Source: a virus. From it: DNA of 64,000 bases. The DNA is taken from positions 1 to 64,000 of the IMG/VR virus record IMGVR_UViG_3300034073_003071; one strand, given 5' to 3'. Every line of letters starts with the position of its first letter. Position 1 is the stretch's first letter. The position numbers and the translations under genes were made by a program. Positions 728 through 47,793 of this stretch are shown here, piece by piece. The notes beneath the pieces were generated by a model, which had not been told where the DNA came from, searched no databases, and saw nothing but the letters and a program-made list of their open reading frames with translations.

Positions 728-1729
728 ATGAAAACTGCATTAATTACTGGTATTACCGGACAAGATGGATCATATCTTGCGGAACTTTTATTGGAAAAAG
801 GTTATGAAGTTCATGGAATTATTCGTCGTGCTTCATTAATTAATACACATAGAATTGATCATATTTACGATCAGATTAAACTTCATTATGGAGATCTTAC
901 TGATTCTACAAATCTCGTAAGAGTTATTCAACAAGTTCAACCAGATGAGATTTATAATTTAGGTGCTCAGAGTCACGTTAAAGTCTCTTTTGAGATGCCT
1001 GAGTATACGGGACAAACTGATGGATTGGGAACTCTTCGTGTTCTTGAAGCGGTTCGTCTTTTGGGAATGGAGAACAAAACAAGAATTTATCAGGCATCTA
1101 CGTCTGAGATGTTTGGTAAGGTTCAAGAAATCCCACAATCAGAAACAACACCTTTTTATCCTCGCTCACCTTATGGAGTTGCAAAAGTTTATGGATACTG
1201 GATCGTCAAAAACTACAGAGAATCTTATGGATTACATGCAAGTTCTGGAATTCTTTTCAATCACGAATCCCCTAGAAGAGGAGAAACTTTTGTCACAAGA
1301 AAAATCACTCGCGGATTATCACGCATTTCAGTTGGCCAACAAGATGTATTATATCTCGGGAATCTGAATGCAAAGCGTGACTGGGGACACGCTAAGGACT
1401 TTGTAGAAGCAATGTGGTTAATGCTTCAACAAGATGAACCAGATGATTATGTGATTGCTACGGGAAATCAATACTCTGTGAGACAGTTTGTTGAAGAGGC
1501 AGCACCTTACTTTGGAATGAAAATTGCTTGGGAAGGTGAAGGTATTGAAGAAGTTGGTATTGATAAACTTACTAAAAGAACCGTTGTCAAAGTGAGTCCT
1601 AAATATTTTAGACCTGCTGAAGTAGAAACCTTATTAGGTGATGCCACTAAGGCAAAAGAAAAATTAGGTTGGGAACCTAAAATTTCATTTAATCAATTAG
1701 TTGAGGATATGTGCATTTATGGACAGTGA
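728..1729 (+). CDS. gmd: GDP-mannose 4,6-dehydratase
   Basis: Converts GDP-D-mannose to GDP-4-keto-6-deoxymannose, the first step of GDP-L-fucose synthesis. It is an extended SDR enzyme with an N-terminal NADP-binding motif GITGQDG (residues 8-14), an active-site STSE segment (about 124-127) and the YGVAK catalytic Tyr149/Lys153 pair. At 333 residues it is close to full length for Gmd. The next gene, GDP-fucose synthase, overlaps its 3' end by 11 bp, so the two-step pathway is translationally coupled. Marine cyanophages commonly carry gmd/fcl pairs. Confidence 0.95.
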
Positions 1730-2651
1730 TTCTAAAATATTTGTTGCGGGACATAAAGGACTTGCTGGTTCTGCAATTGTTAGAGCGTTATTAAAAAATG
1801 GATTTACTAATGTCATTACTAAATCTAAAAGTGAACTTGATCTTAGAAGTCAAAGTAATGTAAGGGACTTCTTCGAACAAGAAAAACCAGAGTATGTCTT
1901 TGATGCTGCGGCAAAAGTTGGTGGAATACATGCCAACGATACTTATTCTGCAGATTTTATCTATGATAACTTAACAATCCAAACAAATTTAATTGATAGT
2001 GCATATAGGTCTGGAGTCAAGAAGTTTTTGTTTTTGGGTTCAGTCTGCATTTATCCAAAGTTTGCTCCTTTGCCTATTGTTGAGGATTGTCTTCTCACAG
2101 GATTTTTAGAACCAACTAATGAAGCATATGCGGTTGCTAAAATCTCTGGAATCAAAATGTGCCAGGCATATAAAAAGCAGTATGGGTTTAATACAATTTC
2201 TCTAATGCCTACAAATCTTTACGGACCTGGAGACAACTATCATCCAGAAAACAGTCACGTAATGGCTTCTATGATACGAAAGTTTTCTCACGCTAAAGAT
2301 AATAATTTAGATGAGGTTATCTGTTGGGGAGATGGAAGTCCTAAGAGAGAGTTTTTGTATTCTGATGATTTGGCAGAAGCGTGTTTAATCGCTATGCAGA
2401 ATCTCAGTGAATATGATGTTATGAATGTCAGTACTGGTGAGGAAGTATCGATCAAAGAAACTGCAGAAATTGTTTCTGAAGTAGTTGGTTATTCTGGTAA
2501 AATTTCTTGGGATACTACAAAACCCAACGGTACTATCAAGAGACCTCTATACGTGGATAAAATTAAATCTCTTGGATGGAAACCAGAAATTACTCTTCGT
2601 GAAGGTGTTCAATCCGCTTATAATTGGTATAAAAAAAATGTTATCATTTAA
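1719..2651 (+). CDS. fcl: GDP-L-fucose synthase
   Basis: Epimerase/reductase that turns the Gmd product into GDP-L-fucose. NADP-binding motif GHKGLAG (residues 11-17), catalytic Ser108 in LGSVCIYP and the YAVAK Tyr137/Lys141 pair are all present. Length is 310 residues, as expected. The ATG at 1719 is chosen over an upstream in-frame TTG because it gives the usual short overlap with gmd. Its product is the donor for the GT11 fucosyltransferase, which starts inside its 3' end. Confidence 0.95.
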
Positions 2652-3444
2652 TAGTATTGGTAATTTGGGAAGAATTGGAAATCAAATGTTCCAATTTGCA
2701 TCATTAAAAGGTATATCTAGGAATCGTGGATATGATTTTTGTATTCCTCCACGCGAATACTTTGGTGTAAATGATGACAATGTAAAGTCATCAGATTTGA
2801 TTATGTATGATTTATTTCATATTGAAGAAAATAATAATATGTCTCTAGGTAATTTTCCGAGATTACCTGAAAGAATGTTTAGTTTTGACACTGAGTTATT
2901 TACTAATTGTCCAGATAATGTTGACCTATTTGGATATTATCAATGTGAAAAATATTTTGAACATATAGAAGAAGAGATTAGAAAAGATTTTACTTTTAAA
3001 GATCAAATACAAGAGATTTCTAAAGATTGTTTTGATCAGTTGTTTTCAAATAAAGAAGTAATTTCATTACATATTCGTAGAGGTGATTATGTAATTAATC
3101 CAAATCATCCATTACAAACTCTAAATTATTATGAAAGTGCATTAAAAAACTTTGATGAAGATATTCCTGTTTGTATTTTTTCTGATGATCCTGAGTGGTG
3201 CTATCAACAAAAGATATTTGAGTCTGATAGATTTTTTATATCAGATACTAAAAACACTGGGATTGATCTTTGCTTAATGACAATGTGTACTTATCATATA
3301 ATTGCTAATAGTTCTTATAGTTGGTGGGGTTCTTACCTTGCTAAAAGTAAGAAGACAGTTGCTCCTAGTGATTGGTTTGGTGATGAATTAAAAAAAACAA
3401 AAGATATTAAAGATTTGCATCGACAAGGATGGGAGATTATTTGA
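2638..3444 (+). CDS. GT11 fucosyltransferase (alpha-1,2-fucosyltransferase family)
   Basis: Predicted to transfer fucose from GDP-fucose to galactose. The N-terminal GRIGNQMFQF (residues 11-20), the GDP-fucose-binding HIRRGDYV (145-152) and a C-terminal ANSSYSWWG are the hallmark motifs of GT11, which in bacteria makes H-antigen-like Fuc-alpha-1,2-Gal. The 268-residue length is typical of a complete enzyme. The start at 2638 aligns with the family N-terminus; the frame is open further upstream but overlaps fcl. Linkage is inferred from the family, not from any direct evidence. Confidence 0.9.
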   Translation: MLSFNSIGNLGRIGNQMFQFASLKGISRNRGYDFCIPPREYFGVNDDNVKSSDLIMYDLFHIEENNNMSLGNFPRLPERMFSFDTELFTNCPDNVDLFGYYQCEKYFEHIEEEIRKDFTFKDQIQEISKDCFDQLFSNKEVISLHIRRGDYVINPNHPLQTLNYYESALKNFDEDIPVCIFSDDPEWCYQQKIFESDRFFISDTKNTGIDLCLMTMCTYHIIANSSYSWWGSYLAKSKKTVAPSDWFGDELKKTKDIKDLHRQGWEII

Positions 3445-5419: not shown

Positions 5420-6141
5420 AAATATCATTGTTTGTTTCTGGTTATCCTAGAACATTATTTTATAAATTCTCTGATAATTTAAAACTCATAAAAAACAAAG
5501 TCGGAGAATGTCAAATAGATATTTTTTATTCATTATGGGATGATTTAGTTAGATATAATAAGATAAATGATCCTTGGCATTTTTTTGTCGAATCTTATAA
5601 TCCACCAGAATTAACAAAAAATATTATTGATGAATATTTTATTGAATGTGGTGCAAGTAAAGTTGATGGTGAAATTGAGTCTATTGAATTGATGAGAGAA
5701 ATTATGGAAGAAAGTCCGTTTGATTATCAAAAATCTCTTTCTTCGCAGTATTATAAAACATACAAAGTAGTTGAAAAATATTTCAACTTAGACTATGATT
5801 TTTATGTAAGAATAAGACCAGATATTATTATTAATGATTTTCCGTCAAAAGATAAAATAAACGAAATGCAAAATAAAAAGTCATTACTTGTTAATGATTA
5901 TTATTGGTACAACGCTCCATACAAAGGAGATCATGTAAATGAAATGGTATGGGCATCTACAAAGGATGTATTTTATATTACTAATGCTATGTTTTTAGAA
6001 CAAAATAATATAGAAAAACAAAGAGGTGGTGGAGATGGATGTGGAGAACGTCATAGTGCCAGATATTTTAATAGTTTACTTGATTCGAATATTTTAAATT
6101 CAATAGAATCGTTTAATTTTGATTATAGGGTTTTCAGATGA
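5416..6141 (+). CDS. Putative glycosyltransferase
   Basis: Not assigned to a named family. The N-terminus KISLFVSGYPRTLF followed by DIFYSLWDD, and the central FYVRIRPDIII, resemble GT-A-type proteins in which a DxD-like element precedes a hydrophobic strand. The RGGGDGCGERH segment is probably a loop near the active site. The start overlaps the previous stop (ATGA), and the next gene overlaps its stop, so it sits in the same translational chain as the flanking transferases. The transferase role is inferred from context and weak motifs. Confidence 0.5.
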   Translation: MKISLFVSGYPRTLFYKFSDNLKLIKNKVGECQIDIFYSLWDDLVRYNKINDPWHFFVESYNPPELTKNIIDEYFIECGASKVDGEIESIELMREIMEESPFDYQKSLSSQYYKTYKVVEKYFNLDYDFYVRIRPDIIINDFPSKDKINEMQNKKSLLVNDYYWYNAPYKGDHVNEMVWASTKDVFYITNAMFLEQNNIEKQRGGGDGCGERHSARYFNSLLDSNILNSIESFNFDYRVFR

Positions 6142-6794
6142 AATTAGATCTTAGAGAAGTTCCAGCAGTATACATGAACTTGGAAAAGCATACTGAAAAA
6201 AATGAAAGTATGTATTCAATGTTAAATGGAATGGGATTTAAAAATATCAATAGAGTTGAAGGTGTTTTAGATTCTGAAAATTCTGTTGCTGGTTGTTCTA
6301 AAGCACATCATAAAGCACTTTGTAATTTTAAGACTCCATTTATTCTTTTTGAAGATGATTGTGGAATTGCTTATGATGACTATAATTTAGAAATTGAAAT
6401 TCCTGATAATGCTGATGCAGTTTATTTGGGTGTCTCTGACTGGGGAAGGATGAATAGCCATAATGGATTTTATAATCAATATGATCTCAATGAAGATCAT
6501 AATAATTTATTGAGAATATATAATATGCTTGGTGGACATGCAGTATTATATTTGTCTGAAATTTATAGAGAAATGTGTGTTAGAATTGCATATCATGCGG
6601 GATATGTAATCAAAAACTATCAAGATGTTGGATTTGCAGAAATACAAAGATGGTTTAATGTCTATTGTTTTAATAGACCAATGTTCTATCAAGTAGATCA
6701 TCCTATTGGAACTAGGAATCTTCTTACTTCATATCAAACTACAGCATGTATGAATATTAATCCCTCACAGTTTTATCCTTATACAATAAAATGA
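6138..6794 (+). CDS. GT25-like glycosyltransferase, copy A
   Basis: Resembles family 25 (LPS/procollagen-type) glycosyltransferases: an N-terminal VYMNLEKHTEKNESM strand-helix, the GCSKAHHKAL segment, then ILFEDDC with the acidic metal-binding triplet. It is a clear paralogue of the gene at 9322-10074; shared segments include EIEIPD-ADA-YLG-S-WGR, YNML and GFAEI. It has lost the longer C-terminus of that copy. It is linked to the following gene by an ATGA overlap. Donor and acceptor are unknown. Confidence 0.6.
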   Translation: MKLDLREVPAVYMNLEKHTEKNESMYSMLNGMGFKNINRVEGVLDSENSVAGCSKAHHKALCNFKTPFILFEDDCGIAYDDYNLEIEIPDNADAVYLGVSDWGRMNSHNGFYNQYDLNEDHNNLLRIYNMLGGHAVLYLSEIYREMCVRIAYHAGYVIKNYQDVGFAEIQRWFNVYCFNRPMFYQVDHPIGTRNLLTSYQTTACMNINPSQFYPYTIK

Positions 6795-7708
6795 ATAATA
6801 GAAAAGTAATTATCTGGGGGCATAAATTCCCAAGCGATACATATTTTTATATTCAAAATGCCTATCATAGGGCATCAAAATATATTGGTTTTGATACCCA
6901 TTGGTTTGATGATAATGATGATGTTTCTTCATTTGATTTTTCAAATTCAATTTTTATTACGGAACATCGTGCTAGAAATAATATGCCAATCTTAGAAGAT
7001 TGTGTATATTATGATCATTTTTCGGACGAACCTTTTGAAAATAAAAATAGACCAGAGCACCCAAATTATTATAACTTTGCATTTTTTGGAGACAGTTGGA
7101 ATTGGCCTCCAGAAGAAGAGTTAGTAGAAATCGGTACAAAACATTTTTTCCATAAAAAAACAAATACTTTAATTACTATTTGGGGTACAGATCTTCTTCC
7201 TTCAGAAATTAACTCTTTAGAACCTAAATTGCATGACGAAAGTTTAAATAACATTTATTTCGTTGGAACAATTCACGGAGAAAATAATTTAAACTTTGAA
7301 AGAATATGTAATTCAAATGGTAAATATTTTACAAGAGCAGGTGGATGGTTTGCGATTGATTATGGAACTCCTTTAACTATAGAACAAAATATAGAAATAG
7401 TTAGAAATTCTTATATTTCTTTTGATATTAGAGATACTGCTCATCTTTATGAGCATGTAAGATATTATCCTTGTCGTTTATTTAAAAATATTAGTTATGG
7501 TAAGTGGAGTGGATCTAATGTTCCTGCAATTGCAGATGTTTTTGGAGACTACTACACTACAGATTCTGACTTAGAAACTTTGTATCATAAGTTGGTTGAA
7601 GATTCTAGAAATTGTACTTATGAAAAAATGAGAAGTGCTATGGACTTCGTTAGGGATCATCATACATATGTTAGTAGATTAAAAACAATGTTTTCTATTT
7701 TGGTTTGA
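6791..7708 (+). CDS. GT-B-like glycosyltransferase, copy A
   Basis: Probable glycosyltransferase with a GT-B-like layout. An N-terminal Rossmann-like strand (KVIIWGHKFPSDTYFYIQ) and a C-terminal CRLFKNISYGKWSGSN plus HHTYVSRL recall the C-terminal domain of CgeB/GT1-like proteins. It is a paralogue of the gene at 8414-9325, with matching start (K-VIWG), middle (ITEH) and end (DHHTYVSR versus QHHTYINR). 305 residues. It sits directly before the GT6 gene. Confidence 0.5.
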   Translation: MNNRKVIIWGHKFPSDTYFYIQNAYHRASKYIGFDTHWFDDNDDVSSFDFSNSIFITEHRARNNMPILEDCVYYDHFSDEPFENKNRPEHPNYYNFAFFGDSWNWPPEEELVEIGTKHFFHKKTNTLITIWGTDLLPSEINSLEPKLHDESLNNIYFVGTIHGENNLNFERICNSNGKYFTRAGGWFAIDYGTPLTIEQNIEIVRNSYISFDIRDTAHLYEHVRYYPCRLFKNISYGKWSGSNVPAIADVFGDYYTTDSDLETLYHKLVEDSRNCTYEKMRSAMDFVRDHHTYVSRLKTMFSILV

Positions 7709-7712
7709 ATTT

Positions 7713-8417
7713 ATGAAAATTTGTATTCTGAACATTGCGACAAACAAATATATTCAGTTTGTTGAACCTCTTCTCGATTCTATCGAAGAGAATTTTTTAA
7801 ACGGTCATGACATCTCTGCATTAGTTTTTACTAATCATGAAATTGAAGAGACCTCTGATAATGTAAAAATTTCTCAAATAGAACATGAGCAGTGGCCCAT
7901 TCCCACTTTAAAAAGATATCATTATTTTCTAAAAGAAAAGGAATATATCTCTCAGTTTGATTACTGCTTCTATATGGATGTAGATATGCGAATTGAGGGT
8001 AAAGTTGGGGATGAAATTTTAGGAGATCTTGTTGCAACTCAGCATCCTGGTTTTTGGTTTAAGACCAATCAAGAATTTTCATATGAGCGTCGTTCAGAGT
8101 CAACTGCATATGTTCCTTTTGGTGAAGGAAAGATGTATTATGCTGGAGGATTTAATGGTGGAAAAACAGAACATTTTTTGAAGATGACGGAAACTATTGT
8201 TTCTAATATTGAAAAAGATTTTAAAAATGGTCTGATTGCAGTTTGGCATGACGAATCTCATATGAATCGTTATTTAATTGATAATCCACCATCATTGGAA
8301 TTAAACCCATCATATTGTTATCCTGAAGCAGTTAGATTCAATCCTGATGGATGGAATGTTCCTTTTGAACCTAAGATTGTTGCTCTTGAAAAAAATCACT
8401 CGGAAGTTAGAAAATGA
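7713..8417 (+). CDS. GT6 glycosyltransferase (ABO/alpha-1,3-Gal(NAc) transferase family)
   Basis: Predicted retaining alpha-1,3-galactosyl- or N-acetylgalactosaminyltransferase. The catalytic core follows the vertebrate ABO enzymes almost block by block: DVDM with the DXD metal site (Asp89, Asp91), HPGFW (111-115), EFSYERR (121-127), YYAGGFNGG (142-150), VWHDESHMNRYLI (177-189, with catalytic-type Glu181) and a C-terminal KNHSEVR. By alignment from memory, the donor-selecting positions 235, 266 and 268 of human GTA/GTB are Gly113, Ala144 and Gly146 here. GTA has Gly/Leu/Gly and GTB has Ser/Met/Ala. At 234 residues it lacks the vertebrate membrane anchor. Bacterial GT6 proteins usually replace DXD with NXN; this one keeps DXD. 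It belongs to the same locus as fucose and 4-epimerase genes. Confidence 0.9.
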   Translation: MKICILNIATNKYIQFVEPLLDSIEENFLNGHDISALVFTNHEIEETSDNVKISQIEHEQWPIPTLKRYHYFLKEKEYISQFDYCFYMDVDMRIEGKVGDEILGDLVATQHPGFWFKTNQEFSYERRSESTAYVPFGEGKMYYAGGFNGGKTEHFLKMTETIVSNIEKDFKNGLIAVWHDESHMNRYLIDNPPSLELNPSYCYPEAVRFNPDGWNVPFEPKIVALEKNHSEVRK

Positions 8418-9325
8418 TTAAAAAAGTTGTTATTTGGGGTTATCCTCCTGATACTCATACACATTCTTATATTCATTTAGGATTTGCAAAAGCTTTTTCT
8501 GAAATGGATTATGATGTTGTTTGGTATGACGATTCTCCAGAATATTCAAATGAAGATTTGCAAGATTCGATAGTTATTACTGAACATAACTGTTGCAAAT
8601 ATATGCCTTTTGAAAAAACATCAAAATATTTTATTCATAATATTGAAGATGGTTTTTATAAGCAAAATAAGTTTGAACAAGAAAATGTTTATAATCTTTT
8701 AGTTTATCATGAAAATTATAATTGGAATGAAAATATAAGTAAATTAAATGATTTCTCGTGGTTTGATAGTGAAACCAATACTGCTGTTATTATGTGGGCA
8801 TCTGATCTGACCTCTAGTGAAATTGATGAACAAGTGGAAGTTTTATTTGATTCGACAAAAAACAATGTAAATTATATTGGATCAATCACGTATGAGTATT
8901 CAAAGGATTTAATTGAAACTGTAAAATCCAATAATAAGAAATTTATTAATTATGGTGGATATACGGGGACAAGAAGTAAAACTACAACATCTGGATTTAC
9001 AAGTAATGGTGAGATGATGGAACTTACTAAAGAATCTTATTTGAATTTTGACATTAGACCGAAGTGTCATCTTGATAATGGATATGTTCCTTGTAGAATA
9101 TTCAAAACAATGAGTTATGGTTGTTGGGTTGGGTCGAATTCTGAAAAAATTTCTAAATTTTTTGGTGATAGAATAACTGTGAATTCTAACCTTACTGATT
9201 TGTACTATCAGACAGAACAAGATAGTAAAAAAGCTACTAAAGAAATTTTAAGAGATAACATGAATTATATAAAACAACACCACACTTATATTAATCGAGT
9301 TGAAAGTATTTTATCCGTTTTATGA
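8414..9325 (+). CDS. GT-B-like glycosyltransferase, copy B
   Basis: Paralogue of the gene at 6791-7708: same length (303 residues), same K-VIWG start, the ITEH motif around residue 57, and a closely matching C-terminal block (VPCRIFKTMSYGCWVGSN, then QHHTYINRVESIL). Probably a glycosyltransferase of the CgeB/GT1-like type acting on the same glycan. The start overlaps the GT6 stop (ATGA). Function is inferred from fold-like features and context only. Confidence 0.5.
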   Translation: MIKKVVIWGYPPDTHTHSYIHLGFAKAFSEMDYDVVWYDDSPEYSNEDLQDSIVITEHNCCKYMPFEKTSKYFIHNIEDGFYKQNKFEQENVYNLLVYHENYNWNENISKLNDFSWFDSETNTAVIMWASDLTSSEIDEQVEVLFDSTKNNVNYIGSITYEYSKDLIETVKSNNKKFINYGGYTGTRSKTTTSGFTSNGEMMELTKESYLNFDIRPKCHLDNGYVPCRIFKTMSYGCWVGSNSEKISKFFGDRITVNSNLTDLYYQTEQDSKKATKEILRDNMNYIKQHHTYINRVESILSVL

Positions 9326-10074
9326 AATTAAATTTACTTGATATTCCAATTTATTATGTAAATTTGGATGATGAAGATCAAAAAAGAAAAAATACTGAAT
9401 CGATGCTTAAATGTATTGGATTCAAATATGTCAATAGAGTTTCTGCCATAAAACACGAAAAGGGCAGAATTATTGGATGTGCAAGATCCCACTATGAAGT
9501 TTTAAAGGACACAAAACCTCCTTTTATCATTATTGAAGATGATTGTGCTCTCAATAAAGACTTTGTAAATGAAATCGAAATTCCAGATGATGCCGATGCT
9601 CTCTATCTTGGAATTTCACATTGGGGTAGGTATCTCAATCATTCTGGACCTTATGTCCATTATCAAAGTGTAAATGATGAGATTGTAAGAGTTTACAACA
9701 TGCTTGCAACTCATGCAATTATGTATTTGTCACAACAGTATGTTGACATTTGTAAAAGGATATCTTATCATTATGGTTATGAAGTAGAAGGTCATCTTGA
9801 TATTGGATTTGCAGAAATCCATAAGTTTTATAATGTTTACAGTTATGATGAACCTCTCTTTAGACAATATGATTGGAGTGCAGTAACGTCTGGAAAACTG
9901 AGTGAAGTTTCAATTGATAAGGAAAAATCTGAGTCCTTATTCAATAACATTTTGAAGTCAGATGAAAATTATTATAAACTCAATTCGGAATTCAAATCTC
10001 CAATCAAACCTCTTATCGAAATGAGAGATGTAAATGGAATTCCAGGATACTATTTACCAACGAGGATAATGTAA
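9322..10074 (+). CDS. GT25-like glycosyltransferase, copy B
   Basis: Paralogue of the gene at 6138-6794 with a C-terminal extension. The GT25-like blocks are YYVNLDDEDQKRKN, GCARSHYEVL and IIEDDCAL (acidic metal site), followed by the shared EIEIPD-ADALYLGIS-WGR. 250 residues. Together with 6138, 6791 and 8414 it forms a mirror-order arrangement around the GT6 gene. It ends just before the epimerase gene. Confidence 0.6.
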   Translation: MKLNLLDIPIYYVNLDDEDQKRKNTESMLKCIGFKYVNRVSAIKHEKGRIIGCARSHYEVLKDTKPPFIIIEDDCALNKDFVNEIEIPDDADALYLGISHWGRYLNHSGPYVHYQSVNDEIVRVYNMLATHAIMYLSQQYVDICKRISYHYGYEVEGHLDIGFAEIHKFYNVYSYDEPLFRQYDWSAVTSGKLSEVSIDKEKSESLFNNILKSDENYYKLNSEFKSPIKPLIEMRDVNGIPGYYLPTRIM

Positions 10075-10971
10075 ATGAAAAGTTTAGTTACAGGTGGTGC
10101 GGGATTTATTGGTTCTAATCTTGTCGATAGACTTCTAGAACTTGGTCATGAAGTTGTCGTTATTGACAATGAGTATTCTGATGCTCATGATCATTTTTAT
10201 TGGAATGAGAAAGCGCAAAATTATAAGTATGATATTCGTGACTATGAAAATACACGATCTCTGTATGATGATGTAGACTATGTATTTCATTTTGCTGCAG
10301 AAGCACGTATTCAACCAGCAATTTTAAATCCAATTGAAGCTGTAAGTATCAATGCAGTTGGAACTTGTACAGTGTTACAGTGTGCAAGAGAAGCTGGTGT
10401 AAAAAGAGTGATGTATTCGTCAACATCATCTGCTTATGGTATGAATGAAACTCCAAATATAGAAACACAATATGAAGATTGTTTGAATCCTTATTCTGTT
10501 TCTAAAGTTTCTGGTGAAAAGTTGTGCAGGATGTATACTAAATTGTATGGACTTCCTACTGTAATTTTTAGATACTTTAATGTTTATGGTGAGCGTCAAC
10601 CTCTTCGTGGTCAATATGCACCAGTAATTGGAATTTTCCTCAGACAAAAATCTAATAATGAACCTTTAACGATTATTGGTGATGGAAATCAGAGAAGGGA
10701 TTTTACTTATGTTGGTGATGTATGTCAGGCAAATATCTTGGCGGCAACAACAGAAGTTGATTTTGATTCCTTTGGACAGGTATATAATGTTGGAACTGGT
10801 AATAATTATTCAGTGAACCAAATCGCAAGAGTAATTTCTAATAATACTGTCAATATTCCTCCTCGTCCAGGTGAAGCACGAATCAGTCTTGCTAATAATA
10901 AAAAACTTCGTGAGACTTTTGGTTGGGAACCAACAATGAATCTTTATGAGTGGATTGTAAAAAATTCATAA
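10075..10971 (+). CDS. NAD-dependent UDP-hexose 4-epimerase (GalE/Gne-like)
   Basis: Extended SDR sugar epimerase. NAD-binding GGAGFIG (residues 7-13), catalytic Ser/Thr segment YSSTSSAYG (114-122) and YSVSK with Tyr140/Lys144 are present, as is the typical GDGNQRRDFTYVGDV block. The pattern best fits enzymes that interconvert UDP-Glc/UDP-Gal or UDP-GlcNAc/UDP-GalNAc. 298 residues, slightly short. Its likely products are exactly the donors used by GT6 enzymes. A UDP-glucuronate or dTDP-sugar enzyme is the main alternative. Confidence 0.82.
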   Translation: MKSLVTGGAGFIGSNLVDRLLELGHEVVVIDNEYSDAHDHFYWNEKAQNYKYDIRDYENTRSLYDDVDYVFHFAAEARIQPAILNPIEAVSINAVGTCTVLQCAREAGVKRVMYSSTSSAYGMNETPNIETQYEDCLNPYSVSKVSGEKLCRMYTKLYGLPTVIFRYFNVYGERQPLRGQYAPVIGIFLRQKSNNEPLTIIGDGNQRRDFTYVGDVCQANILAATTEVDFDSFGQVYNVGTGNNYSVNQIARVISNNTVNIPPRPGEARISLANNKKLRETFGWEPTMNLYEWIVKNS

Positions 10972-11976: not shown

Positions 11977-12771
11977 ATGGATAAAAATAAATCTTCTTAC
12001 AAACTCAAAGGCATTCCCCCAATTTATTATATCAATCTGGACGATCAGCCAGAAAGAGCACAATATATGGAGGAACAATTTAAATACTGGGAAATAGAAA
12101 ATTATACTCGTATTTCTGCATATGATGGAAGAGATGATAAAGACCTTGGAGATATTTTAAAGGGTCGTTATCCAGATATGATGTCATCTGGTGAAGTTGG
12201 GTGTACAACCTCACATCTCAAAGCCATTCATCATTTTCTTGAAAACACTGATCATCCATGTGTATTAATAATGGAAGATGATTGTGATTTAGAGACTGTT
12301 AAGTATTGGCCTTTTACTTGGAAAGATTTTTATTCAAAAATACCATATGCATATGATGTAGTTCAACTTGCAATTATTAGTACAACTCCGGTGCATATAT
12401 CACTTCATAGAAGATTTGTAAATGATTTTTCAACAGCTTGTTATTTAATTACTCGTCATCATGCACAAAAATTAGTTAATCTTCATATACGTGGAGATAA
12501 GTATAAAATTGATAACGGGGTAAAACCACGTGCTGTTGCAGATGACTTGATTTATAATTCTGGTAACACCTTTGCAATTCCATTATTTCTTTATAAAATT
12601 GAACTTGGGTCATCCATTCATGATGACCATATTGATACTTATCATAAAAAAACTTATGATAGTCTTTGGAATTTTTGGAAATATGAAGCGGTAGATGTTG
12701 AAAATTGGGAAAAAATATTTGATTATAATCCATATTATGGAACACTTCCACCAGGATATGAAAGTGAATAG
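11977..12771 (+). CDS. GT25-family glycosyltransferase
   Basis: Clear GT25 (LOS/procollagen type) pattern: YYINLDDQPERAQYM near the N-terminus, GEVGCTTSHLKAI, then VLIMEDDCDL with the acidic metal site and a later ADDLIYNSG. 264 residues. It is related to the N-terminal domain of the fusion protein at 43367-45235 (both have ETVKYW after the EDD motif). It is the last gene of the first glycan cluster; a weak TAAGTAA/TTACTTA hairpin (12772-12787) lies directly after its stop, before the terminator at 12805. Confidence 0.7.
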   Translation: MDKNKSSYKLKGIPPIYYINLDDQPERAQYMEEQFKYWEIENYTRISAYDGRDDKDLGDILKGRYPDMMSSGEVGCTTSHLKAIHHFLENTDHPCVLIMEDDCDLETVKYWPFTWKDFYSKIPYAYDVVQLAIISTTPVHISLHRRFVNDFSTACYLITRHHAQKLVNLHIRGDKYKIDNGVKPRAVADDLIYNSGNTFAIPLFLYKIELGSSIHDDHIDTYHKKTYDSLWNFWKYEAVDVENWEKIFDYNPYYGTLPPGYESE

Positions 12772-13768: not shown

Positions 13769-13902
13769 ATGTTAAGAAATCCTCATAATTCTTAACATTG
13801 TTCCTCTACCTAACCGAGACCTATGGGGAGGTTAAACACAGTCTCTCATACCCACAATGGAGGGTGTTGTGGGAAATACTATACTATCCAGTTCCCCCTG
13901 GA
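13769..13902 (+). promoter_or_regulatory. Structured psbA 5' leader (three hairpins)
   Basis: No ORF supported here. Three perfect inverted repeats follow each other: AATGTTAAGAA/TTCTTAACATT (13769-13779 / 13789-13799), CCCACAA/TTGTGGG (13851-13857 / 13867-13873) and TCCAG/CTGGA (13887-13891 / 13898-13902). The last ends 23 nt before the start codon. A role in mRNA stability or translation control is inferred. Confidence 0.5.
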
Positions 13903-13925: not shown

Positions 13926-15218
13926 ATGACTGCTACTATTGCTACACGCCGTTCTGGCGAAAACCTCTGGGAACAATTTTGCCAGTGGGTTACTTCAACG
14001 AACAACCGTCTTTATGTCGGTTGGTTCGGAACTCTGATGATTCCTACATTGCTTGCTGCTACTGTATGTTTCATCGTCGCCTTCATTGCAGCCCCACCAG
14101 TGGACATTGATGGCATTCGTGAACCTGTTGCTGGTTCACTCATGTACGGAAACAACATCATCTCTGGTGCCGTTGTTCCAAGTTCTAATGCGATTGGATT
14201 GCATTTTTACGCAATCTGGGAAGCAACAAGTCTTGATGAATGGCTTTATAATGGCGGACCTTTCCAACTGATTGTGTTCCACTTCCTCATTGGCATCTAT
14301 TGCTATATGGGTCGTGAATGGGAACTCTCATATCGTTTGGGTATGCGTCCTTGGATTATGGTTGCTTACAGTGCTCCTGTTGCTGCTGCATCTGCTGTAT
14401 TCCTAGTATATCCTTTTGGACAAGGTTCATTCTCTGATGCGATGCCTCTTGGTATCTCTGGTACTTTCAACTATATGTTTGTGTTCCAGGCAGAGCACAA
14501 TATCCTGATGCACCCATTCCATATGCTTGGAGTTGCTGGTGTCTTCGGTGGTTCTCTGTTCAGTGCTATGCACGGTTCTCTTGTTACTTCTTCACTGGTT
14601 CGTGAAACCACTGAAACTGAATCGCAGAACTACGGTTACAAGTTCGGTCAAGAAGAAGAGACTTATAACATCGTTGCTGCTCACGGTTATTTTGGTCGTC
14701 TAATCTTCCAATATGCATCGTTCAACAACTCTCGTAGTCTTCACTTCTTCCTTGCTGCCTGGCCCGTTGTAGGCATCTGGTTTGCTGCTCTTGGTGTGAG
14801 CACCATGGCATTCAACCTGAATGGTTTCAACTTCAATCAGTCAATTCAAGATAGTCAAGGTCATGTTATTAACACTTGGGCGGACATCTTGAATCGTGCT
14901 GGACTCGGAATGGAAGTTATGCATGAGCGTAGATTTGGGTATTGCGCTCTTTAAATCGGATGAATTGCTGGAAACCCCAAGTGGGCAATCAGCAGCCAAG
15001 TCTTAGATACATCTAAGAAAGGTTCAGAGACTACCTGAGGAATAAAGTTTCCTTAATAACAGGGTTAGCGTCCGACACCAGAAATGGTGATGATATAGTC
15101 CAATCCTGGTAGTAATACCAGATTTCAAGAGGTTTATAAGAATGCCCACAATTTCCCTCTTGACCTTGCATCAGTTGAAGCAACTCCTGTTGCCTTGACT
15201 GCTCCAACCATCGGTTGA
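13926..15218 (+). CDS. psbA: Photosystem II D1 protein, interrupted by a group I intron
   Basis: Reaction-centre protein D1 of photosystem II, which would replace the host copy during infection. Exon 1 is 13926-14930 (335 codons) and exon 2 is 15141-15218 (25 codons plus stop). Joined they give a 360-residue D1 with the usual five membrane helices and the C-terminal ligand segment [15 protein letters not shown]. Numbering runs one ahead of the standard D1. The intron falls right after the codons for the standard His332-Glu333-Arg334, so the ligands His337, Asp342 and Ala344 are encoded only by exon 2. Without splicing the frame reads RFGYCAL and stops at 14954, giving a D1 that lacks these ligands. 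A terminator follows the gene. Confidence 0.96.
14931..15140 (+). ncRNA. Group I self-splicing intron in psbA
   Basis: 210-nt intron without its own ORF. Exon 1 ends in U (GAGCGT), which pairs with an internal guide GCGCTC (14944-14949) to form P1 with the expected U-G at the splice site. The intron ends in G (15140). Core: P7 strands GACTA (15029-15033) and TAGTC (15096-15100) within the canonical GATATAGTCC; P8 CACC/GGTG (15076-15079 / 15086-15089); P9-like CTGGTA/TACCAG (15106-15111 / 15116-15121) capped by a GUAA tetraloop; a peripheral CTTAGA/TCTAAG stem at 15002-15017. A psbA intron of about this size and site is known in cyanophage S-PM2. Confidence 0.93.
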
Positions 15219-15283: not shown

Positions 15284-15712
15284 ATGACTAAACTTTACTC
15301 CGAACTTTATAGAAACTGCATGACCTGTGGCAAGGAAAAACTTGCTACGGATTTTTATGTGAGAAATAAAGTGAATATGGTTCGTCATTCATCTTGCAAA
15401 GAATGTGATAAAGCAAGGGTTAGAAAAAGACATCAAGATAATCCAGAACGCACAAGAAATAATGACCTAAAAAGAAACTATGGTATAACTCTCCAAGAAC
15501 ATCAGCAGATGTTTGACGAACAAAAAGGTGTTTGTGCTATTTGTAAAGGTGAAGGTGATGGTAAATGGAAAAAACTTTGTGTAGACCACGATCACGAAAC
15601 TGGTAAAGTTCGTCAACTTCTTTGTAGGAATTGTAATATGGTATTGGGACAGGTTGGAGATAATATAAATCTTCTGGAGGAAATGATTAAATACTTACAA
15701 AAGCACTCATAA
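15284..15712 (+). CDS. Endonuclease VII-like (HNH-type) free-standing homing endonuclease
   Basis: Predicted DNA endonuclease of the T4 endonuclease VII fold. An N-terminal zinc-knuckle-like pair CMTC...CKEC (around residues 13-39) is followed by the endo VII core: YGITLQEHQQMF, CAIC, the catalytic VDHDHETGKVRQLLC and a second zinc pair CRNC, ending in LLEEMIKYL. 142 residues. It lies directly downstream of the intron-containing psbA, as does the homing endonuclease F-CphI in phage S-PM2, which cuts intronless psbA. The same role is inferred here. It is not inside the intron. Confidence 0.88.
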   Translation: MTKLYSELYRNCMTCGKEKLATDFYVRNKVNMVRHSSCKECDKARVRKRHQDNPERTRNNDLKRNYGITLQEHQQMFDEQKGVCAICKGEGDGKWKKLCVDHDHETGKVRQLLCRNCNMVLGQVGDNINLLEEMIKYLQKHS

Positions 15713-37714: not shown

Positions 37715-38546
37715 TCTGTGTCGTATTGTACCTGATAATGGTTTTTATATTCATTCTCAAGTTTTCCATGAGATTGAAGCGGCGATGTTTTTTACCCTTC
37801 AAAGGATGGGGTATGAAGTTACGAATAGTGTAAATGACTTCAAAAGAGATGCTAGAAATATTGTGTTTGGAATGCACCACTGCCCCGTAGATGTTGTTCG
37901 GCATGATGTTCCTAAAGATACAATTGTATATTCTTTAGAACAAATGAGAGATTCTCCAGAGTGTATTCGATGGTGTAGAAAATATCGTGGATTAGAAGTA
38001 TGGGATTATTCTATGAGGAACGTAGATGTTCTTCGTAAGGCAGGTGTAGAAAATATCAAGCACTGTAAAGTTGGATATGTCCCAGAAATTTCTTACTTTG
38101 AAAGGAACAAACCAGAAGAAAGAGATATTGACATTCTTTTTTATGGTTCTCCATCTCCTAGAAGAGTTGCTGTAATGGATGTTTTTGATAAAGATCCAAA
38201 CATCAACTTTGTTCATGTTCAATCAACTTATGGTGATGATCGTGATAAGTATATTCAAAGAGCAAAGTTGGTAATTAATTTGCACAATCACGATAATCAA
38301 ATCTTTGAAATCATTCGCGTATCGCATTTGATTCAAAATAAAGTTCCTGTTCTTTGTGAGAGAAATTCTTATACAGATTTTCCAGATTATATGGAAGGAA
38401 CAGTGTTTACTGCGCCATATGAACAGTTTGTTGCGAAGGCATATGAACTTCTGAAAAATACAAAAGAACTAGATGAGCAAGCAGAAAGGGGATTGGAAAT
38501 TTTTAAAAAATCTCCCATGGAAAATTTTCTTAAGGAGGTTTTATGA
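37704..38546 (+). CDS. GT-B-like glycosyltransferase
   Basis: 280 residues from a GTG start at 37704, which has GGAGAG 8 nt upstream and overlaps the previous stop. The central DIDILFYGSPSPRR and the C-terminal AKLVINLHNHDNQIFEIIRVSHLIQNKVPVLCE match CgeB/GT1-like C-terminal domains, where a glutamate-containing helix binds the nucleotide sugar. The N-terminal donor half is short. The transferase role is moderately supported. Confidence 0.6.
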   Translation: MKFNLCRIVPDNGFYIHSQVFHEIEAAMFFTLQRMGYEVTNSVNDFKRDARNIVFGMHHCPVDVVRHDVPKDTIVYSLEQMRDSPECIRWCRKYRGLEVWDYSMRNVDVLRKAGVENIKHCKVGYVPEISYFERNKPEERDIDILFYGSPSPRRVAVMDVFDKDPNINFVHVQSTYGDDRDKYIQRAKLVINLHNHDNQIFEIIRVSHLIQNKVPVLCERNSYTDFPDYMEGTVFTAPYEQFVAKAYELLKNTKELDEQAERGLEIFKKSPMENFLKEVL

Positions 38547-40396
38547 AAGTAATTGATGGTTTTTCATTCTTTAATGAATTTGATATTCTTAAGTTGAGAT
38601 TGGAATATCTCCGCGATGTTGTAGATTATTTTGTTATTTCTGAATGTAACTATACACATTCTGGAAAACCAAAACCATATTATTTGGATCAAATAATTGA
38701 TCAATTTGATGATGAATTAAAGTCTAAAATTATTCGTCTTAAATATGAACCCAATATTGATGGGTATGATTTTAGTAATAGGGATGAATGTAATTTTGAA
38801 TCTGGTTTTTGGAAATTAGAACAGGGGCAACGAGATCATATCAGTAAAGGATTATTTCAATTTGGATTTGATGATCTTTTCATGTTAAGTGATGCTGATG
38901 AGATTCCGAAGAAAGAATTGATTCTTTATATGAAAGATAATATTTCTAAAGAATCATTTGCCACTGCTATGTGTGAAAACTTTTATTATAATTTTAATAC
39001 ATATGAAAATGATACGTGGGCAGGAACAGTATTTACTACAGTTAAGAATGCACTAGAAAATGGATGCAATTACTTAAGAGCAAACTGTTTTACTTTTCCT
39101 TTTGCAGAAAAGTCTGGGTGGCACCTTACATTCTTTGGTGGAATTGAACAAATTAAAACAAAGTTGGAATCCTATGCTCATCAAGAATTTAATCGTGATG
39201 ATATTAAAAATGAAGAGCATATTAAAACCGCGATTAAAACTGGGACTGATCTTCTAGATCGTAAGCATGAACATAAACAGTTCATCAAGTATAATTTTTC
39301 AAACTTTCCAGAAGACTTTAAAAGTGCTATAATTAAAACATTCGCAGAAGAATACTATAAGATGCCAGAACCCGAAGTTGTAACACGACCAGAGTTTCTT
39401 CATAATAATATGCCACCACTTCTTGAGGCATCGTTGAATCCTGATGGAACTGGTGGTACGGAGATTATGGGTCGTGCTTGGCAAGATCTTGTTCTTCCTG
39501 CGGCACCAGATCTTGCCGATTGGCACTGGTGTGTGATTCCTGGTGATAATATTATTGCGCCAGATAATTCTAATATTGTTTGGTTGCATCCCCATCATAA
39601 TGAGGTTGGTCTTGAACAGTTGATGGACAAGCAGTTCCAGAAACATTTTAAAGCATATGTTTTTGTTTCTGATTGGCAATATGGGAGATTTGGTGAAAAG
39701 TTTAATCTTCCCATGGAGAAATGTTTTGTTCTTAAGAATGCAATTCATCCTTTTGAACCTCATAAGAAACCTGAAGGAAAACTTCAACTGATGTTCCATC
39801 CTAATCCAATCCGTGGATTGGATCTTCTTTTGGAAGGTATTAAATTGATTCCGGAAGAGGACTTTGAACTTCATATTTTCCATGAACTTGATCCTGATGA
39901 GCGTAAAAAACAATATGCTCAAGGGTTACAAACATATGAATATTCTCATGTTTGTGAACAAGAAGAAAAGTTTCTTCGTTACTGTTTAGCACTCGCAAAT
40001 GATGATAAGCGAGTTGTTCGTCATACACGAACAAATAACTCTAAAATTCGTGAGCAATTGATGAAGACTCATATCTTTGCTTATCCATCATACTTTCAGG
40101 AGACATCTTGTATTTGTTTGATTGAAGCACTTTCTGCTGGATGTTCTGTAGTTGCAAGTAATCTTGCGGCACTTTCTGAAACTTCTCTGGGATTTGCTCG
40201 TCTTTATGGGTATATTCCTGATCGCCAAAAACATATTGAGCGTTTTGCGGAAGAACTTAAACAAACTATTACAGAATACCGAAATGGGCAGTTTGATAGC
40301 ACCGCTCAAGTACAGGTAATAAATAACTACTACAGTTGGGATACTAGAATCCAAGACTGGGTTAAATTTTCAAAAGAACTTTGGAGGAAATTTTAA
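38543..40396 (+). CDS. Bifunctional glycosyltransferase: GT17-like plus GT4
   Basis: 617 residues. The N-terminal part (1 to about 260) begins VIDGFSFFNEFDILKLRL and has DYFVISECNYTHSGKPKP and FMLSDADEIPKK, the hallmarks of family 17 (N-acetylglucosaminyltransferase-like). The C-terminal part (about 290-617) is a GT4 enzyme: GGTEIMGRAW near its start, MFHPNPIRGLDLLLEG, and the EX7E motif from Glu520 to Glu528 within a SYFQETSC...EALSAGC block. Such a fusion could add two residues in sequence to one glycan. Overlaps the preceding gene by ATGA. Confidence 0.8.
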   Translation: MKVIDGFSFFNEFDILKLRLEYLRDVVDYFVISECNYTHSGKPKPYYLDQIIDQFDDELKSKIIRLKYEPNIDGYDFSNRDECNFESGFWKLEQGQRDHISKGLFQFGFDDLFMLSDADEIPKKELILYMKDNISKESFATAMCENFYYNFNTYENDTWAGTVFTTVKNALENGCNYLRANCFTFPFAEKSGWHLTFFGGIEQIKTKLESYAHQEFNRDDIKNEEHIKTAIKTGTDLLDRKHEHKQFIKYNFSNFPEDFKSAIIKTFAEEYYKMPEPEVVTRPEFLHNNMPPLLEASLNPDGTGGTEIMGRAWQDLVLPAAPDLADWHWCVIPGDNIIAPDNSNIVWLHPHHNEVGLEQLMDKQFQKHFKAYVFVSDWQYGRFGEKFNLPMEKCFVLKNAIHPFEPHKKPEGKLQLMFHPNPIRGLDLLLEGIKLIPEEDFELHIFHELDPDERKKQYAQGLQTYEYSHVCEQEEKFLRYCLALANDDKRVVRHTRTNNSKIREQLMKTHIFAYPSYFQETSCICLIEALSAGCSVVASNLAALSETSLGFARLYGYIPDRQKHIERFAEELKQTITEYRNGQFDSTAQVQVINNYYSWDTRIQDWVKFSKELWRKF

Positions 40397-41670: not shown

Positions 41671-43374
41671 ATGAATATTTCTGTACTTTTTTTAAATTTA
41701 TCTTCTAGAGATGTAATCTTAACTCATGATTTCATATTGAATGACTTGTTAAATGATTATGAAAAATCAATTTCATATTTAAATTCTGATCAAATAACGG
41801 ATCAAAAATTTGATGTGCTTGTTTATAGTTGTAGAAATCCAACAATTGAAGTTCACTTTGGGTATGCTCCACCATTTGAAGTTGTTTTAGATGTGGTTAA
41901 AAAAGTAAAACCAAAAATTATTATTCAATTGTCTGATGAATTTTGGCAAGAAAATAATAATATTCATAATTCTCTTGCTGATCATTGCAAGTTGTTTATA
42001 AAAGAACATTTCCATTGGAATCATTCTTATACTTCAAATACAATTCAAAAACCATTAGGTTACTTAAATGATTTTCCTGTTGACTTAGAAAATATTAAAC
42101 CAATTAATGATAGGAAATATTTTTGGTCATGGGTTGGTTATTTAAAAGGTGATCGACAAGACATGATTAATAAATTCATGAGAATCTGGTATCATGTTTG
42201 TGCGTCTAATGGTGGATTAAGTAGACCTGAAATTCATGAACTTTATAGTAATTCTAAATTTGTTCCTATTGGTAGAGGAAATTCATCTGTAGATTGTTGG
42301 AGAATTTATGAAGCAATAGTTTGTGGTGCTATTCCTGTAATAGTATCTTATGAAGATGAAATAAACTGGTCTTTTCAATATAAAGAAAAACTTCCAGCAA
42401 TATATGCTTCAAATTGGGATGAAGCATCTGATATCTGTATACGATTATCAGATGATCCTGAAGCAATGTCTGCTAAGCAGGAAGAACTTTTAAATTGGTG
42501 GAAAAATACAATAGCATATACTAAAGAAGAAATTAAAAAAGTATTTTATGAAACATCAATAACTGTCATATGTGCATGTAAAAATAGAGATCCTGCTTTA
42601 AAAGTTTCTCTTAGATCTTGGTTAAATTTTGATCAAATATCTGAGATTATTATCGTTGATTGGAGTTCTGATAATTCATTAGAATATTTAACGTCTTGGG
42701 ATAAAAGAATTAAAGTAGTATCAGTACCTAATCAAAATTATTTTAACCAACCACAACCATTAAATTTGGCAACAAAATTAGCCGAAAGTAAATATATTCT
42801 CAAGCTTGATTGTGATTATATCTTAAATCCCTATTTTAAATTTTTTGAAAATAAAGAATATTTAATTGATGATCAATCTTTTGTTTGTGGACAAAATACA
42901 GTTGATCGGGGATTTGATCCTTATTACAAGTATCTTTTCGGATTCCTTTATGTTTCTAAATCGAACTTTATGAAAATAAACGGATTTTCTGAACGTTTTT
43001 GTAAATGGTATGCATCTGAAGATCAGGATATTATGATGAGATTAGAAAATCTGGGTCTGAAGAAAAGGGGAATGGATTATGATCATAACGTAATTCATAT
43101 ACCTCATTCAGATAAAAAACGGACAGAAAATTTTGAAGCGACAGTAATTGAAAAAGAATATGAAGACGACATAAGAGAAAGAATGAAGCATAGGGGATTT
43201 GATGGTGAAGAATTGCAATGGCAAACTGAATTTTCTCTAGCTCAAATGCATGTGAATGCAAATCAAGGATGGCTTTCTCAAATGGGAAATGATTATGTTT
43301 GTACGGATCCAATGACCGAATGGGATATTGAAAGGATAAATTCACAATATTATATTGCAAAGAAACATGAATAA
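41671..43374 (+). CDS. Bifunctional: exostosin-like plus GT2 glycosyltransferase
   Basis: 567 residues. Residues 1 to about 285 resemble exostosin/GT47-like domains: KYFWSWVGYLKGDR, FVPIGRGNSSVDCWRIYEAIVCGAIPVIV (the donor-binding block). From about residue 297 a GT2 domain begins (ITVICACKNRDPALKVSLRSW, IIIVDWSSDNS, LKLDCDYIL with the DCD metal site, and KWYASEDQDIMMRL near the catalytic aspartate). Fusions of GT47 and GT2 recall glycosaminoglycan polymerases, but polymerase activity is not shown. Confidence 0.75.
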   Translation: MNISVLFLNLSSRDVILTHDFILNDLLNDYEKSISYLNSDQITDQKFDVLVYSCRNPTIEVHFGYAPPFEVVLDVVKKVKPKIIIQLSDEFWQENNNIHNSLADHCKLFIKEHFHWNHSYTSNTIQKPLGYLNDFPVDLENIKPINDRKYFWSWVGYLKGDRQDMINKFMRIWYHVCASNGGLSRPEIHELYSNSKFVPIGRGNSSVDCWRIYEAIVCGAIPVIVSYEDEINWSFQYKEKLPAIYASNWDEASDICIRLSDDPEAMSAKQEELLNWWKNTIAYTKEEIKKVFYETSITVICACKNRDPALKVSLRSWLNFDQISEIIIVDWSSDNSLEYLTSWDKRIKVVSVPNQNYFNQPQPLNLATKLAESKYILKLDCDYILNPYFKFFENKEYLIDDQSFVCGQNTVDRGFDPYYKYLFGFLYVSKSNFMKINGFSERFCKWYASEDQDIMMRLENLGLKKRGMDYDHNVIHIPHSDKKRTENFEATVIEKEYEDDIRERMKHRGFDGEELQWQTEFSLAQMHVNANQGWLSQMGNDYVCTDPMTEWDIERINSQYYIAKKHE

Positions 43375-45235
43375 ATTTAAAAATTTTCCTACTGCATATT
43401 ACTTATCTTTAGAGGAATCAATTGAACGTCAAAAAAATATTGAGAACGAATTTCTTAAATATAATATAAAATTAAATCCTATAATTTCAAAAAGATTTTC
43501 AGAATCTAATGATAAAATTTTTGGAAAACATCTGAATCAATTAAATTCTGGAACAGCAGGATGTTGTGTTTCTCATCTCAAAGCAATTAAAGATTGGTAT
43601 GATAATTATAATGACGACTATGCCTTTTTTTGTGAGGATGATCTGTCATTAGAAACTGTAAAGTATTGGAATTTTTCTTGGGATCAATTTATTGAAAATG
43701 TTCCTAAAGATTATGATTGTATTCAGCTATTGACAATTCGTAAAAATTTTGATACATTTACAATACGTGAAAGATATTGGGATGATTGGGCTGCAACCGC
43801 ATACATCATTAGAAGAGAGTATGCAAAAAAAATTATAGATACTTACATAAAGGAAGACACTTTTAATTTAGAAATACCAAATGTAGAAGTGATGCCCTTA
43901 ATTGAAAATATTTTATTTACTATAGGTAAAACATATACTATTCCTTTATTTGTGGAAAATACAGAATTTGATTCTACATTTTCCAAAGCACAAGATGATG
44001 ATGTAAATGAAGGGCAAAAAAATAATCATAAGATAGCACATGATATTGTTTTAAATTATTGGAAATCTAAAATGAATACTAATTTATCAACATTATTAAC
44101 TGAATTTTCATTAGATACTGAAAATGCAATTAATAATTTTAATCTTGGAGTTTGGTATGAAAATAGTGGACATACTGCTCCTGCTTTATCTTATTTTTTA
44201 AGATGTGCAGAAAGATCTGATGATGATCATCTTGCATATGAAGCTTTGATTCGAGCTTCATATTGTTATGATAAACAAGGAACTAGAGATGGAAGTGCAA
44301 AGTCTTTGCTTGAACAAGCATTGTGTTTGTTACCTACTAGACCCGAAGCATACTTTCTTTTAAGTAGATTTGCAGAGAGGCGTCAATGGTGGCAAGACTG
44401 TTATATTCATGCCAATAATGGATTAATGTTTGCTGAGCATGATTCTCATCCAGATTTAATTACTGATGTTGAATATCCCGGATATTATGGATTGCTTTTT
44501 GAAAAGGCAATTTCTGGATGGTGGTGGGGTAAAAATGAAGAATGTAAAAATATTTTGTTAGATATCAAAGATAACTATACATTAAATGAAGTATATCAAA
44601 AAAGTGTTTATGATAATTTAAAAAAAATTGGAGTAGAAATTTTAGAAGAATCTTCTAATTATTTTCACAATGAGTATTTGAATGCATGTAATACACCTAG
44701 TGATATAAATGAAAATCTTCACATTCTTTTTGATCTTGCTAATGAATGTGAACATGTTACTGAATTTGGAGTAAGATCTGGTGTTAGTACTAGGGCATTT
44801 TTAAATACAAATGTATCTTTAAGATCATACGATTTGGAAAAAAATTCGGTCGTAACTGATCTGTTTGAGATGGCAAATAGTATTGGAAAAGATGCCAAGT
44901 ACTATGAAGAAGATGTATTAAATGTCGAAATTGAAGAAACTGATCTTCTGTTTTTTGATACTTGGCATCATTATGAACAGCTAAAGCAAGAGTTGAATAA
45001 ACACTCCAGCAAAGTAAGGAAATATTTGGTTTTTCATGATACACATACTTATGCGATGTCTGGTGAGAAATGTTCTAATGCAAGTAGTGGAAATATATTA
45101 ACAGATACTATTGAAAATCCTGAAGGTTTATTGCCAGCAATTATAGAATTTATGGTGTCTAATTCAAATTGGATTTTTAAAGTTTATAAAAAAAATAATA
45201 ATGGATTAATTGTTCTTGAAAAAAAAACTTTATGA
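43367..45235 (+). CDS. Trifunctional fusion: GT25, helical repeat, SAM methyltransferase
   Basis: 622 residues. Domain 1 (to about 235) is GT25-like: AYYLSLEESIERQKN, GTAGCCVSHLKAIKDW and FFCEDDLSLETVKYW. Domain 2 (about 245-430) is a TPR-like helical repeat (NFNLGVWYENSGHTAPALSY, AYFLLSRFAERRQWW). Domain 3 (about 440-622) is a methyltransferase-like fold: VTEFGVRSGVSTRAFL, LRSYDLEKN, DLLFFDTWHHYEQLKQEL, YLVFHDTHT. The ATG at 43367 overlaps the previous gene by 8 bp. It may act as a scaffold and enzyme for one decorated sugar (inference). Confidence 0.75.
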   Translation: MNKFKNFPTAYYLSLEESIERQKNIENEFLKYNIKLNPIISKRFSESNDKIFGKHLNQLNSGTAGCCVSHLKAIKDWYDNYNDDYAFFCEDDLSLETVKYWNFSWDQFIENVPKDYDCIQLLTIRKNFDTFTIRERYWDDWAATAYIIRREYAKKIIDTYIKEDTFNLEIPNVEVMPLIENILFTIGKTYTIPLFVENTEFDSTFSKAQDDDVNEGQKNNHKIAHDIVLNYWKSKMNTNLSTLLTEFSLDTENAINNFNLGVWYENSGHTAPALSYFLRCAERSDDDHLAYEALIRASYCYDKQGTRDGSAKSLLEQALCLLPTRPEAYFLLSRFAERRQWWQDCYIHANNGLMFAEHDSHPDLITDVEYPGYYGLLFEKAISGWWWGKNEECKNILLDIKDNYTLNEVYQKSVYDNLKKIGVEILEESSNYFHNEYLNACNTPSDINENLHILFDLANECEHVTEFGVRSGVSTRAFLNTNVSLRSYDLEKNSVVTDLFEMANSIGKDAKYYEEDVLNVEIEETDLLFFDTWHHYEQLKQELNKHSSKVRKYLVFHDTHTYAMSGEKCSNASSGNILTDTIENPEGLLPAIIEFMVSNSNWIFKVYKKNNNGLIVLEKKTL

Positions 45236-47731: not shown

Positions 47732-47793
47732 AATCCTCTAACGTTCATCCCTTTGGGACGGAAGTAAGCCGACTCGGAACGGATCGTTCATCT
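47732..47793 (+). promoter_or_regulatory. GC-richer structured leader with direct repeats
   Basis: Richer in G and C than its surroundings. CGTTCATC occurs at 47742-47749 and again at 47785-47792, the second ending 1 nt before the start codon. Between them are TCCC-TTT-GGGA and CCG-ACT-CGG hairpins and repeated CGGAA. May be a cis-regulatory RNA; no known riboswitch is recognised. Confidence 0.4.

Follow-up and report, generated by a model that had tools for sequence, protein, structure and literature searches.

The glycosylation island and its GT6 gene

The stretch of DNA analysed here, called the window, is 64,000 nucleotides in length and makes up positions 1 to 64,000 of a virus record of 100,242 bases. 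The virus is a T4-like cyanophage near Synechococcus phages S-SRM01 and S-PM2, with P-SSM2 also among its relatives. A glycosylation island occupies one strand from approximately position 5 to position 12771, and many of its genes overlap by four bases or almost touch. The following genes were assigned:

728..1729, + strand: GDP-mannose 4,6-dehydratase (gmd), first step to GDP-L-fucose (TIGR01472, 566 bits, cut-off 415)
1701..2651, + strand: GDP-L-fucose synthase-like epimerase/reductase, second step (NF047922; start uncertain, possibly 1722)
2638..3444, + strand: GT11 fucosyltransferase, alpha-1,2-FucT family (PF01531, phrog_2644)
6138..6794, + strand: GT25-like protein A (phrog_24091), outer GT6 flank, 44% identical to 9322-10074
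6791..7708, + strand: glycosyltransferase-like protein A, inner GT6 flank, 33% identical to 8414-9325
7713..8417, + strand: GT6 glycosyltransferase, ATG start, 234 aa (PF03414, PDB sequence and fold matches)
8414..9325, + strand: glycosyltransferase-like protein B (Glyco_trans_1_2), inner GT6 flank (PF13524, 26.9 bits, cut-off 25)
9322..10074, + strand: GT25-like protein B (phrog_24091), outer GT6 flank
10075..10971, + strand: GalE/WbpP-like nucleotide-sugar 4-epimerase (Epimerase, PF01370)
11977..12771, + strand: GT25-family 'glucosyltransferase' closing the island, used as control anchor (PF01755, E=2.6e-13; phrog_2835, E=1e-129)

The ORF at 7713-8417 is a GT6 well beyond chance. Its PF03414 match scores 159 bits against a Pfam cut-off of 25 (E=1.6e-46), and sequence matches in the PDB include Bacteroides ovatus BoGT6a (E=6e-52) and human GTA and the ABO enzymes (~1e-39). 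The AlphaFold2 model has a mean pLDDT of 92.4. The best Foldseek match to this model is BoGT6a with UDP-GalNAc (E~1e-28, TM 0.93), followed by GTA/GTB (GTA E~1e-25) and bovine alpha3GT. By both sequence and fold, BoGT6a (4AYJ, 4CJ8) is the best solved relative, with an identity of 40-42%, compared with ~33% for human GTA. The NCBIfam model NF041524 (Gltr_6) gives 214.6 bits (E=1.3e-63), under its curated cut-off of 250, and by this profile the protein is related to that NCBI subfamily but lies outside it as curated.

Vertebrate ABO enzymes are membrane-anchored proteins with a stem. That layout, a type II membrane protein with the stem first, is absent in the phage GT6, which consists of the catalytic domain only. 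The 234-aa ORF starts at the catalytic domain, and the PF03414 match begins at profile position 79. A single GT6 is present in the whole 100,242-base record. Relatives with 80-93% identity occur on separate viral contigs and have DVD, AGG, and WHDE intact.

The GT6 family is already known from cyanophages, and the protein described here adds a further member. Cyanophage GT6 had been noted by 2014 (PMC3961637), and the family is annotated in many cyanophages, including P-SSM2 ('glycosyltransferase family 6'). In the literature searched, no published enzyme activity was found for any cyanophage GT6. The GT6 proteins of the Prochlorococcus phages P-SSM2 and P-SSM5 belong to the same type I clade at 61% identity, and share DVD, AGG, WHDE, and the C-terminal Lys and Arg. 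They differ in having Tyr (HPYQ) at human position 235, where the present protein has Gly (HPGF). In P-SSM2, a GT11 lies three genes upstream of the GT6 and an epimerase two genes downstream.

The four genes flanking the GT6 gene are two pairs of paralogs, all on one strand and arranged in mirror order around it (6138 with 9322, and 6791 with 8414, at the identities listed above).

Upstream, the ORF at 1701-2651 scores 452.5 bits (E=7.5e-136) with NF047922 (GDPFucSynFcl), which is below the cut-off of 500 yet by far the best model. For the GT11 gene, PF01531 matches the longer ORF 2485-3444 with 85.5 bits (cut-off 23.9), and phrog_2644 matches from residue 1 of the start at 2638 (E=9e-109). 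A sequence search of the PDB gave no relative of this GT11. The enzyme is predicted from its family to make a Fuc-alpha-1,2-Gal acceptor.

The PDB relatives of the epimerase at 10075-10971 are UDP-glucose 4-epimerase (4zrm) and WbpP (1sb8), and it could possibly supply either UDP-GalNAc or UDP-Gal. A Ser in this protein aligns with the Ser of the WbpP 'RHSLAD' motif and, in view of Ser306 in WbpP, is compatible with N-acetylated substrates. The aligned Ser may be read as a weak pointer to such substrates. Among the island ORFs scanned with Pfam, no lipid-linked initiating transferase, flippase, or polymerase was matched, and because of this the island probably modifies a pre-existing acceptor.

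Active-site residues and the donor loop

The codons of interest within the GT6 gene are as follows:

7977..7985, + strand: DXD motif, Asp89-Val90-Asp91 (alignments)
8049..8051, + strand: Gly113, human position 235 (alignments; the position varies in phage relatives)
8142..8150, + strand: donor tripeptide, Ala144-Gly145-Gly146, human positions 266-268
8253..8255, + strand: catalytic Glu181, human E303, BoGT6a E192 (alignments; invariant)

The sequence-only reading had aligned this protein with the human enzymes by eye, and alignments with known GT6 sequences place every residue it named at exactly the same position. The Asp89-Val-Asp91 motif that it reported is intact. D89-V90-D91 corresponds to D211-V212-D213 of GTA, G113 to G235, and A144-G145-G146 to L266-G267-G268. 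E181 lies in the WHDE motif. The C-terminal cationic residues K227 and R233 correspond to K346 and R352 of GTA and to K359 and R365 of alpha3GT; roles of the C-terminal Lys and Arg in GT6 enzymes have been described (PMC3961637).

Human GTA/GTB share with the phage protein the DVD motif, HPG, an XGG loop, the catalytic Glu, the KNHxxVR end, and the retaining GT-A fold; GTA differs in having LGG in place of AGG. BoGT6a shares the AGG loop (A155-G156-G157), HPG, WHDE, Lys231, and the single-domain form. It differs in having NAN in place of DVD and is metal-independent (PMC3961637).

Donor contacts were compared using the BoGT6a residues tabulated in PMC3961637, as far as these could be placed. 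Apart from the NXN/DXD pair and Asn69, which is Pro64 in the phage protein, all are either retained or replaced conservatively. Thr10, Tyr13, Trp66, Thr70, Arg73, and His122 of BoGT6a are kept as T10, Y13, W61, T65, R68, and H111, while Gly157, Trp189, His190, Asp191, Glu192, and Lys231 are kept as G146, W178, H179, D180, E181, and K227. In addition to the NAN to DVD and Asn69 changes, Thr134 (T245) is replaced by Ser123.

Ala144 had been described as neither A nor B, which was wrong. Ala-Gly-Gly at 266-268 is an A-transferase tripeptide that occurs frequently in the A transferases of vertebrates other than primates (PMC6351642), and Ala144 is thus ruled out as an atypical donor residue. As read from its residues, the donor loop is wholly A-type, because AGG is the A-transferase tripeptide and BoGT6a has AGG as well. 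The tripeptide is invariant in type I phage GT6 (64/64 distinct sequences). Gly113 and Gly146 had also been given as A-type residues, and their alignment with human 235 and 268 stands. As a sign of the donor, position 235 says little; codon 235 influences the choice of sugar only slightly (PMC5278553), and type I phage sequences have Tyr there in 40 of 64 cases and Gly in 21. G235 carries little weight for the donor.

The type II cyanophage GT6 proteins (S-CAM9, Bellamy, B23, ACG-2014f, and DSL-LC02/03) resemble the present one in having DXD and in lying in phage islands with GT11. They differ in their identity to it (~32-36%), in their QGC/QGS loop, and in the C-terminal Arg, which is mostly lost. 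The QGC/QGS tripeptide (loci L006-L011 and L036:6027-6761) is unlike the characterised LGG, AGG, MGA, GGA, and HAA. Some viral contigs contain two GT6 genes (L036, L037, L044, L049, L056, L063, L071, L073, and L074), and in those checked the pair consists of a type I (AGG) and a type II (QGC/QGS) gene.

The DXD motif among phage and bacterial GT6 proteins

All 76 distinct cyanophage GT6 sequences collected have DXD, which rules out the motif as a peculiarity of this phage. The sole N-type phage record comes from human feces and is an unverified scaffold. The bacterial sample covers 80 loci, with one genome scanned per species using a phage-derived query. Its 80 scorable sequences comprise 45 NXN, 5 NXT, and 30 DXD, and the phage origin of the query inflates the DXD share. 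The sequence-only reading had contrasted the phage motif with an NXN in most bacterial GT6 proteins; this holds for the commensal clade, but not for these 30. The bacterial DXD proteins are found mostly in Dependentiae/Babeliales and Chlamydiae, plus some others. In the genomes of these two groups DXD GT6 is common (L173-L200, L211, and L250), mostly without a nearby GT11.

GT6 trees were built without the two Asp columns. In a 116-row tree, the DXD and N-type enzymes are split by one change, and a careful 66-row tree again has one change between them. In the latter, the phage protein lies within a 25-row DXD clade with bacteria (among them Dependentiae and Chlamydiae sequences), with support of 100/98. 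The motif had been called vertebrate-like. It is a state shared with the vertebrate enzymes and marks no special kinship, as the phage protein has its closest non-phage relatives among DXD enzymes of bacteria. A quick tree without human GTA needs two DXD/N-type changes. A clade uniting phage types I and II is not rejected (p-AU 0.88), and because it gives a better fit than this quick free tree, the quick tree is regarded as a poor search; the careful 66-row tree takes its place. Separate origins of the two phage types are thus not demonstrated. In these trees, all sampled NXN enzymes appear to be set apart from the rest by a single DXD/NXN change, with the cyanophage enzymes on the DXD side.

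The DXD enzyme of Parachlamydia acanthamoebae, a bacterial GT6 to which the phage protein was likened by description, requires Mg/Mn (PMC3961637). The phage enzyme is very probably metal-dependent as well, because its DXD is intact, because of its placement in the tree, and because of this precedent. These trees bear on how the metal-free NXN and metal-bound DXD forms arose in the family that makes the ABO antigens.

Donor, acceptor, and a candidate pathway

The A-type loop points to UDP-GalNAc, which is probably the donor. BoGT6a, the nearest solved AGG enzyme, is a GalNAc transferase that uses UDP-GalNAc (PMC3961637), and human A transferase carrying AGG gives strong A activity and no B (PMC6351642). 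AGG is not by itself selective evidence or proof of GalNAc use, because XGG prevails among bacterial GT6 proteins and because rat iGb3 synthase with AGG retained weak iGb3S activity, a transfer of Gal (PMC6351642). Positions 266-268 are MGG in 21, AGG in 9, SGG in 6, and CGG in 5 of the 50 N-type bacterial sequences, and AGG in 21 of the 30 DXD ones. These observations, with an epimerase in the island that could supply either UDP-Gal or UDP-GalNAc, would fit a metal-dependent GT6 whose donor is UDP-Gal or a sugar specific to the glycans of cyanobacteria, in which case the A-type loop would be an ancestral default and no sign of GalNAc use. Set against the BoGT6a and human precedents, such an enzyme is rather unlikely. 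A decayed or inactive GT6 kept by chance is highly improbable, given that the frame is intact, that all catalytic residues are kept, and that the 80-93% identical relatives retain their motifs. Both the sequence and published precedent support the earlier suggestion that the enzyme needs metal and leans to UDP-GalNAc.

For the acceptor, Fuc-alpha-1,2-Gal has about an even chance. The characterised bacterial enzymes BoGT6a, BgtA, and WbnI act on Fuc-alpha-2-Gal (PMC4202792). GT11 is found in all 14 whole cyanophage records with GT6, compared with 5 of 18 cyanophage genomes without it (Fisher p=2.5e-5; 1.3e-4 after thinning the GT6 genomes to 11), and the GT6-less control took in some phages already known for GT11, which works against the difference. 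GT11 is also directly upstream of GT6 in several type II phages, and is nearby in 52 of the 80 bacterial GT6 loci. The same chemistry on another phage or host glycan, with GT11 acting elsewhere in the island, is nevertheless a substantial possibility, though somewhat short of an even one. In the window, six genes lie between GT11 and GT6, including other glycosyltransferase-like genes; 20 of the 30 DXD bacterial loci are without GT11; and the identities to BoGT6a and GTA are distant enough for a different acceptor. Among loci with relatives of the anchor gene at 11977-12771, GT11 is present in 29 of 43 with GT6 and in 16 of 16 without it. A specific GT6-GT11 pairing inside islands sharing this anchor is unsupported by these counts, and because GT11 occurs in all 16 GT6-less islands, the two genes may merely share an island class. 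The co-occurrence fits a GT6 that needs GT11, and it also fits both genes belonging to large islands.

The metal need, donor, and acceptor that we infer for the protein combine in one candidate reading, which we favor slightly: the protein would be a retaining, metal-dependent alpha-1,3-GalNAc transferase whose acceptor is Fuc-alpha-1,2-Gal. The Pro64 and Ser123 changes at donor contacts, the distant identities to BoGT6a and GTA, and the Gltr_6 score below its cut-off weigh against it. The phage may build a blood-group-A-like sugar, because a GT6 with a metal site and an A-type loop lies near genes for making and attaching fucose. In this pathway, the phage GMD and fucose synthase would make GDP-fucose, and GT11 would add fucose to give a Fuc-alpha-1,2-Gal end. 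As in the ABO enzymes, Asp89 and Asp91 of the soluble single-domain GT6 would hold a divalent metal through which the UDP-sugar is bound, and Lys227 and Arg233 would close over its diphosphate. The Ala144-Gly145-Gly146 loop would admit UDP-GalNAc. The sugar would then be transferred via the Glu181 site with retention of configuration. The predicted product is GalNAc-alpha-1,3-(Fuc-alpha-1,2)-Gal, an A-antigen-like cap. Its carrier might be a host surface polysaccharide altered during infection or a phage structural protein; cyanophage genes of the LPS type are generally assumed to modify the surface of the host (PMC9602691).

It is conceivable, though doubtful, that many T4-like cyanophages combine GDP-fucose synthesis, GT11, and an A-type DXD GT6 in a compact pathway that places a true blood-group-A-like trisaccharide on a host or virion glycan during infection. 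In that case, much A-like antigen and many metal-dependent microbial GT6 enzymes would come from marine and freshwater viruses. Should the fucose-plus-GT6 path be real, an A-like epitope may be presented by phages, either on their own particles or on cyanobacteria. The combination of a fully A-type loop with a GDP-fucose/GT11 path appears less discussed in the literature searched, and an earlier mention is possible. Small soluble phage DXD enzymes with an A-type loop would lend themselves to tests of metal dependence and donor choice.

Two more large proteins with glycosyltransferase domains (38543-40396 and 43355-45235; phrog_2170 and phrog_2835) are encoded far downstream of the GT6 island and could mark a second glycosylation region. 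A PhotoRC-II RNA (RF01717, 77 bits) is located at 13793-13887, just upstream of psbA. A group I intron (RF00028, 89 bits) is located at 14881-15122, at the 3' end of the psbA ORF, and is followed by an endonuclease VII-like gene at 15284-15712. A weak match to a glutamine riboswitch (RF01739, 36.0 bits, cut-off 35) is present at 47740-47785.
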